A stretch of DNA of 64,000 bases, from assembly GCA_023151185.1 (NCBI GenBank), contig JAKLJL010000012.1:1-64000 (forward strand), written 5' to 3'. Below, piece by piece: positions 57,804 through 58,446 of the stretch. Source of the stretch: Bacteroidota bacterium. GTDB lineage: Bacteria; Bacteroidota; JABWAT01. The notes under the pieces are model-generated. The model ran no database searches and was not told the origin of the DNA. It was given only the letters and a program-made list of their open reading frames with translations. The position numbers and the translations under genes were made by a program. How positions within the stretch are numbered: position 1 is the first letter of the stretch; every line of letters begins with the position of its first letter.

Positions 57804-57889
57804 GGAGGAGTCGCATAGTTGGTCTAGTGCGCACGCCTGGAAAGTGTGTATACCGAAAGGTATCGAGAGTTCGAATCTCTCCTCCTCCG
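57804..57889 (+). tRNA. tRNA-Ser (GGA anticodon)
   Basis: An 86-base cloverleaf. Acceptor GGAGGAG pairs with CTCCTCC (57882-57888) with discriminator G; D stem GCAT/GTGC; anticodon stem CACGC/GTGTG with loop CTGGAAA (GGA, Ser); long variable arm ATACC-GAAA-GGTAT typical of tRNA-Ser; T stem GAGAG/CTCTC with T-loop TTCGAAT. CCA is not encoded. It lies 46 bases after the CAT tRNA. Its 3' half is repeated, with an insertion, about 396 bases downstream. Confidence 0.95.
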
Positions 57890-57890
57890 C

Positions 57891-57918
57891 AAAAAGCCAG
57901 TCCCCCGACTGGCTTTTT
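57891..57918 (+). terminator. Terminator after tRNA-Ser (first copy)
   Basis: AAAAAGCCAGTC (57891-57902) and GACTGGCTTTTT (57907-57918) form a perfect 12-bp stem with a T5 tail. The same sequence is repeated at 58287-58314 in the second unit. Confidence 0.92.
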
Positions 57919-57936
57919 AGTTTATCCCGGGGAAAA

Positions 57937-58185
57937 ATGATGGTTTATGCGTATGTTTTAAAAAGTCAGGAAACCGGCCGGTATTATTATGGCAGTTCTG
58001 AGTCGCCTGAAGTGCGTTTGGAAACTGAACATAATAAGGGAAAAGTTAAGGCAACAAAGGCAGGCCTCCCCTGGACTTTAATTTACAGGGAAGAGTTCCT
58101 TACCCGGAGTGAAGCTTACCGGCGTGAACAGTATTTTAAAAGCTGGGCAGGGCGAAGTTGGCTGAAATCAAAAGGTATCACCTAG
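57937..58185 (+). CDS. Small GIY-YIG endonuclease-like protein
   Basis: The 82-residue protein has a compact GIY-YIG nuclease fold. VYAYVLKS and RYYYGSSES supply the tyrosines and the GIY-YIG-like strand pair, PEVRLETEHNKGK carries the conserved arginine and the next helix, LPWTLIYREEF the third strand, and SEAYRREQYFKSWAGRSWLK the final helix with the glutamate that binds metal. It starts at ATGATG after the tRNA terminator. A frame that begins upstream would read through the tRNA and is rejected. Its C-terminus (AAAGGTATCACC, then TAG) ends at a copy of the tRNA variable arm. DNA target is not proven. Confidence 0.85.
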   Translation: MMVYAYVLKSQETGRYYYGSSESPEVRLETEHNKGKVKATKAGLPWTLIYREEFLTRSEAYRREQYFKSWAGRSWLKSKGIT

Positions 58186-58208
58186 ACCGAAAGGTATCGA
58201 AAGAGTTC
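58186..58208 (+). repeat. Copy of the tRNA-Ser variable arm and T-stem start
   Basis: ACCGAAAGGTATCGA (58186-58200) repeats 57852-57866 exactly, followed by two extra A bases and GAGTTC (58203-58208), as in the tRNA. This shows that a second tRNA-Ser 3' half existed or was carried by the element. Confidence 0.85.
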
Positions 58209-58270
58209 TCCAGGGCTCCCGCTTTGCGGGGCCCACGGACCCGTCGTCCCGGTTTTCCGGGACTTGGGGA
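58206..58270. mobile_element. 60-base Y-shaped palindromic insert in a tRNA T-loop copy
   Basis: The insert occupies 58209-58268. It contains two hairpins: GGGC(T)CCCGC-TTT-GCGGGGCCC (58213-58234) and GTCCCGG-TTTT-CCGGGAC (58246-58263). Its ends and flank (TTCTCCAG with CTTGGGGAA) can pair to close a Y-shaped junction. It lies exactly between GTTC and GAAT of the T-loop. No coding potential. Confidence 0.7.
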
Positions 58271-58428
58271 ATCTCTCCTCCTCCGCAAAAAGCCAGTCCC
58301 CCGACTGGCTTTTTAGTTTATCCCGGGGAAAAATGATGGTTTATGCGTATGTTTTAAAAAGCCAGAAAACCGGCCGGTATTAATATGGCAGTTCTGAGTC
58401 GCCTGAAGTGCGTTTGGAAACTGAACAT
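58269..58428 (+). repeat. Second, partial copy of the unit (160 bases)
   Basis: It repeats 57873-58032 with 157 of 160 bases identical: tRNA-Ser T-loop and acceptor end, terminator, and the first 96 bases of the GIY-YIG gene. It breaks off at 58428, before the 3' end of the convergent ApbE gene. Confidence 0.92.
58333..58428 (+). pseudogene. Truncated GIY-YIG pseudogene
   Basis: This is the start of the second GIY-YIG copy. The codons match the first copy except for one T-to-A change that turns the second tyrosine codon of the YYYG motif into TAA (58381-58383), plus two other base changes. The C-terminal 50 codons are missing, so it is non-functional. Confidence 0.9.
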
Positions 58429-58446
58429 CACATTACCCCGGGGAAA

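Follow-up and report, generated by a model that had tools for sequence, protein, structure and literature searches.

The window analysed here is a 64,000-nt stretch of contig JAKLJL010000012.1 from a Bacteroidota bacterium. At positions 57804-58446 it carries a complete tRNA-Ser(GGA) gene, a small GIY-YIG nuclease gene and a broken second copy of part of the tRNA, arranged as follows:

57804-57890, plus strand: intact tRNA-Ser(GGA), whose 3' part from GAATC (57873) lies inside the repeated unit
57891-57918, plus strand: intrinsic terminator hairpin downstream of tRNA-Ser(GGA)
57937-58185, plus strand: small GIY-YIG nuclease gene (82 amino acids, UPF0213/SLX1-like)
~58183-58208, plus strand: partial tRNA-Ser copy with the variable arm and the 5' half of the T-arm, its last letters being GTTC
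58209-58268, plus strand: 60-nt T-loop insert, whose two hairpins make up a three-way junction together with the T-stem
58269-58286, plus strand: 3' part of the far tRNA-Ser copy, from GAATC to the tRNA end
58287-58314, plus strand: second copy of the terminator
58333-58434, plus strand: remnant of a second GIY-YIG copy, truncated and containing an in-frame TAA

An initial annotation of this DNA had already described the tRNA, the terminator, the intact nuclease gene and the broken tRNA copy, all of which were recovered at the same positions. Its nearly identical 396-base unit repeat was also confirmed as a direct repeat of 160 nt (57873-58032 and 58269-58428) with 98% identity and a spacing of 396, and so was its junction between GTTC and GAAT: the tRNA copy stops at 58208 and resumes at 58269, which places the break exactly between TTC and GA (TTC/GA). 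What it had called a 60-base palindrome is instead a pair of hairpins on an extended T-stem, which fold as a three-way junction on either DNA strand (DNA z of -3.3 and -2.6). The supposed start of another GIY-YIG gene is indeed a second copy, but a fragment which matches residues 1-34 alone and contains one in-frame TAA. Because this copy is a fragment, the locus is best described as one apparently intact unit plus a remnant. The GIY-YIG gene is the sole open reading frame of the unit, and a site-specific recombinase is absent. The unit terminator (GCCAGTC..GACTGGC) is also present at other genes of genome G000 (C2:5006, C1:84583 and C6:3726).

The 82-residue protein consists of a single GIY-YIG domain (PF01541, E = 1.6e-13), and residues Y6, Y17, G19, R27 and E64 are invariant in an alignment of 12 proteins. 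By sequence profile, its closest solved relatives are the UPF0213 proteins 1ywl and 1zg2, and SLX1. No family in NCBIfam or PHROGs was matched by the protein, and it had no match in the phage (1e-5), plasmid or viral contig collections searched. SLX1 structure-specific nucleases act on branched DNA, and we know of no description of UPF0213 or SLX1 proteins as tRNA-linked mobile genes.

Small UPF0213/SLX1-like GIY-YIG loci were compared in two collections, one from 80 related genomes (84 loci) and the other from a scan of ~85,000 species (76 loci). A tRNA gene lies within 500 bp at 135 of these 160 loci (65/84 and 70/76, respectively), always on the same strand, whereas the random expectation is ~1-2% by a rough estimate assuming ~45 tRNAs in 3.7 Mb. 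The ~85,000-species scan used a tRNA-Ser-linked query, so the excess of Ser in that set is partly by design; the adjacency to tRNAs is unaffected. Several of the loci without a nearby tRNA in these collections sit at contig ends. In a further GIY-YIG set a tRNA was nearby at 16 of 18 loci. The hosts include Bacteroidota, Balneolota, Ignavibacteriota, Calditrichota, Nitrospirota, Planctomycetota, Verrucomicrobiota, Elusimicrobiota and candidate phyla; carriers available in culture include Flagellimonas beolgyonensis, Pararhodonellum marinum and Litoribacter ruber. At most of the loci the tRNA is partly repeated on the opposite side of the gene, and 32/160 contain at least two GIY-YIG matches.

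Several of the tandem arrays are present in single-contig genomes, which rules out assembly artefact as their source. One such genome (L282, 1100-1830) has near-identical tandem units of ~316 bp, each with a tRNA-Ser(TGA) 5' half, two hairpins and a GIY-YIG gene, and an intact tRNA-Ser(TGA) stands at the end of the array. At another, tRNA-Met-like locus (L068, 2083-5000), eight GIY-YIG copies occur in tandem and the 5' half is not recognisable.

Taken alone, the 396-nt repeat in the window could have arisen by plain tandem duplication of a tRNA locus in which the nuclease gene is a bystander and the remaining sequence is junk that has built up. This reading is very improbable in view of the same architecture, the loop-exact inserts and the isotype-structured nuclease tree (described below) across many phyla. 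The initial annotation had allowed for a plain duplication confined to this place; what we found is a unit that recurs at other tRNAs and relatives that have empty sites.

Hairpin-broken tRNA copies of the same kind are also present at tRNA-Ser(CGA) and tRNA-Asp(GTC) in the genome from which the window comes. Behind the former lie two nearly complete copies of tRNA-Ser(CGA), and in both a similar 56-nt insert interrupts the sequence at the same GTTC/GAATC point; this array has no GIY-YIG gene. Downstream of tRNA-Asp(GTC) come a GIY-YIG gene and 3' copies of tRNA-Asp that carry a hairpin in place of CGAGTTCG in the T-arm, and the array reaches past the contig end. The inserts shared within this genome are located in copies of the local tRNA, and insert-type hairpin repeats were not found in it outside tRNA loci. 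An excess of TCCCG..CGGGA hairpins (206 in the same genome vs 32 in the control) was set aside, as this motif is short and composition-biased.

Within the genus (genomes G000-G003), both occupied and empty orthologous sites were observed at three tRNAs, namely Ser(GGA), Ser(GCT) and Ala(GGC), although insertion and tandem duplication lead to an identical end state. At tRNA-Ser(GCT), G001 is occupied and G000 and G002 are empty, and the flanking genes are shared on either side; in G001 the native downstream flank directly follows the far 3' end, which is broken by a hairpin. The tRNA-Ser(GGA) site is occupied in the window and in G001 and empty in G002 and G003, the downstream flank being rearranged in G002. 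At tRNA-Ala(GGC), G001 and G002 are occupied and G000 is empty. Together with the copies at many other tRNAs and in many phyla, these empty sites support the earlier proposal of a mobile, tRNA-linked system without a transposase.

Two observations were made near these sites. In G003, a degenerate 5' copy with a D-arm hairpin lies upstream of the intact tRNA-Ser(GCT) and the GIY-YIG gene is absent (L253); it looks like the scar of a lost unit. The flank past tRNA-Ser(GGA) in G002 (L221) is 82-88% similar to flanks past tRNA-Ser(GCT) and near tmRNA in the window genome (L016, 1852-2001 and 3363-3498, minus strand), which perhaps represent old integrase attachment sites or exchange between loci.

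The points at which the tRNA copies are broken are highly specific. Among 78 clean hairpin insertions in partial tRNA copies, 69 lie inside tRNA loops, as against 33% expected (binomial p = 5e-24). The commonest junctions are TTC/GA in the T-loop (32) and TTG/AA in the anticodon loop or D-loop (18), and 34 of 35 T-loop breaks fall directly after TTC. A second style, in which the hairpin replaces half of the T-arm or the whole anticodon arm, was found at Asp, Gly, Val, Lys and Gln tRNAs. The T-loop had been put forward as the break point; this is exact for the window, but other loci break in anticodon loops, in D-loops or by replacement of an arm. The position also depends on the side of the gene. 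When the tRNA lies upstream, the far copy is a 3' piece, with breaks in the T-loop (46), the anticodon loop (15) and the D-loop (0); when it lies downstream, the far copy is a 5' piece, with breaks in the D-loop (17), the anticodon loop (11) and the T-loop (3). An element that brings along the short stretch of tRNA required to restore the gene would be expected to give such a pattern, and the earlier suggestion of a carried tRNA end for repair is borne out in that this end keeps the tRNA intact.

The precision of insertion at TTC/GA and TTG/AA, as well as the existence of empty sites, would fit a classical homing logic along the lines of the initial annotation, in which the loop word of intact tRNA genes would be the cleavage site of the enzyme, the hairpin insert would shield the element's own tRNA copy, and repair would copy the element into the cut tRNA. 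There is also a phage precedent, as the GIY-YIG enzyme SegB cuts tRNA-containing DNA and drives tandem amplification (PMC13096335). However, we consider this logic unlikely. The far tRNA copy is interrupted, yet at the loci scored the gene retains as its neighbor an intact cognate tRNA in which the same word is unbroken. Because the two coexist, it is less likely that the nuclease cuts the T-loop word of an intact tRNA, and free cutting of that word in duplex DNA would be hard to maintain. Moreover, pseudo-copies often retain another loop word intact (e.g., L189, L143 and L073), and the hairpin class follows the nuclease, as would be expected of a binding site.

The inserts themselves have a conserved design. 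The commonest one is 22 nt long and consists of two hairpins, each with 4 bp and a 3-nt loop. In 30 distinct inserts, 95% of the arm positions of these mini-hairpins are Watson-Crick paired, compared with 73% when arms were dealt anew (maximum 79% in 2000 shuffles). The first loop (A) is [AG]NA in 29/30 inserts, whereas the second (B) is of the complementary type in 26/30 and [AG]NA in none, so that one loop of the same type appears on each strand. C(GNA)G is an extraordinarily stable DNA mini-hairpin (Hirao 1994; Yoshizawa 1997; as cited in PMC11101458). These mirrored, covarying pairs point to DNA rather than RNA as the probable level of action.

A system acting on RNA might nevertheless be considered, in which transcripts of the hairpin-bearing tRNA copies would serve as decoys or antidotes, with the GIY-YIG protein acting as a toxin or as a partner in tRNA processing. 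Co-transcription is plausible, as gene and tRNA always share one orientation and some of the genes begin only a few bases past the end of the tRNA, and in some arrays several pseudo-tRNA units precede the gene (e.g., L086). On the other hand, RNA would have no need for complementary loops that give each strand the same loop type, similar double mini-hairpins also exist away from tRNAs, and GIY-YIG enzymes are known to act on DNA. An RNA-level explanation is thus improbable, even more so than cutting of the intact tRNA.

Phylogenetic analysis was based on a 72-column alignment of the nucleases, in which many forks are weak. On this tree, tRNA isotype changes 33 times, compared with a mean of 71.9 when shuffled (reached by 0/1000 shuffles); in the named set the numbers are 9 vs 25.9. 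Host phylum is hardly tracked in the named set (24 changes vs 26.2 shuffled, 43/1000 reaching) and likewise within Ser (13 vs 13.3, 514/1000), although many loci come from metagenome-assembled genomes, in which mis-binned contigs can look like transfer between phyla. Some signal remains for host class (21 vs 28.1, 0/1000), which counts against the explanation that we favor below. The location of the gene upstream or downstream of the tRNA has little signal (33 vs 37.5, 57/1000) and none within Ser. The class of hairpin tracks the nuclease even when shuffled only within isotype (19 vs 30.9, 0/1000). This inheritance of hairpin class with the nuclease lineage suggests that the nuclease may target the hairpins and not the intact tRNA.

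Comparison of these sequences establishes that the unit recurs at many tRNAs, that orthologous sites can be occupied or empty, that interruptions are loop-exact and that units are amplified in tandem; it also shows nuclease lineages which are loyal to isotype and hairpin class while apparently crossing phyla. The putative element consists of a UPF0213/SLX1-like GIY-YIG gene, a piece of tRNA through which the host tRNA stays functional, and a further incomplete tRNA copy in which a loop is split by the hairpin pair that would be cognate to the nuclease. We think it probable that the locus in the window is a copy of a widespread, transposase-free selfish element of ~0.3-0.4 kb residing in tRNA genes, whose nuclease would cut its own hairpin and which would spread by homologous repair. 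The nuclease may recognize and cut the hairpin as a three-way junction in single-stranded DNA; the cut would expose tRNA sequence on both sides, and homologous repair with an intact same-isotype tRNA as partner could then amplify the unit locally or install it in a new genome. Such homology-driven repair would explain why the units are loyal to an isotype, always point the same way as the tRNA, leave a tRNA preserved and grow in tandem. Cutting of the own hairpin is favored because hairpin class follows the nuclease, its nearest structural relatives are UPF0213 and SLX1, and the inserts form branched DNA; the proposed substrate draws on this co-inheritance and on a likeness to the Ssn system.

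Two further observations count against this self-cutting element. At one locus (L012) tRNA copies broken by hairpins are present but a GIY-YIG gene is absent, and a sister clade of similar GIY-YIG proteins (L019, L123, L134, L136 and L138) has no tRNA nearby; this clade is perhaps a domesticated branch and a natural control group.

Several known systems resemble parts of this arrangement. REP sequences with RAYT genes are likewise dispersed short palindromes served by one gene which they flank, but the enzyme class differs and tRNA nesting is absent. Integrative elements of tyrosine recombinases also insert in tRNA genes and restore them with a carried tRNA end, whereas the element described here has no integrase, breaks in loops with hairpins, and uses 5' as well as 3' tRNA parts. 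Free-standing homing endonuclease genes share the homing-type nuclease domain (PF01541) and the presence or absence at orthologous sites. The Ssn proteins of Neisseria, attributed to Chenal and colleagues in 2025, are reportedly site-specific single-strand GIY-YIG nucleases with NTS repeats; they too are reported to combine a small single-domain protein with repeated short hairpins, and single-stranded DNA is the likely substrate. To our knowledge, tRNA nesting, an element-carried tRNA half and isotype loyalty are not part of the Ssn system.

SegB of T-even phages and free-standing phage GIY-YIG homing endonucleases are similar in that a nuclease gene lies beside tRNAs, and tRNA and nuclease are amplified in tandem by recombination (PMC13096335). 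Unlike the lineages described here, which are nested in tRNAs and loyal to isotype, SegB has no isotype preference, it is a phage system, and hairpin-interrupted tRNA copies are not mentioned in the accessible part of that source. The window protein also falls outside the phage nuclease families, as reflected by the PHROGs and phage contig searches. In the literature searched, whose coverage mostly excludes subscription papers, we found no description of tRNA copies interrupted by hairpins or of nucleases loyal to an isotype. SegB and Ssn are the nearest known systems, and there is a serious chance that the tRNA-nested units form a class of their own. In its most specific form, this would be a new class of minimal mobile element, in which a structure-specific nuclease of ~80 residues acts on its own paired mini-hairpins and partial tRNAs serve as portable homology arms for same-isotype homing in unrelated phyla without a transposase or integrase; we regard this as a real prospect, at slightly less than an even chance.

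Small GIY-YIG genes are usually annotated as mere members of a nuclease family, whereas those analyzed here are a tRNA-isotype-bound, apparently selfish family distributed over many phyla, which includes tandem arrays at tRNA genes, some of them at contig ends. If the proposed mechanism is true, a gene could move by homology to a universal gene alone, the paired nucleases and hairpin sites could be used for work on single-stranded DNA, and duplication and remodelling of bacterial tRNA genes would become directly testable.

Double mini-hairpins similar to those in the inserts were also detected in two Balneolota genomes, at 12-13 sites each compared with 0-1 in the control. These repeats are REP-like; the inspected sites (L230-L249) lie nearly all away from tRNAs, and several are located inside a longer outer stem.
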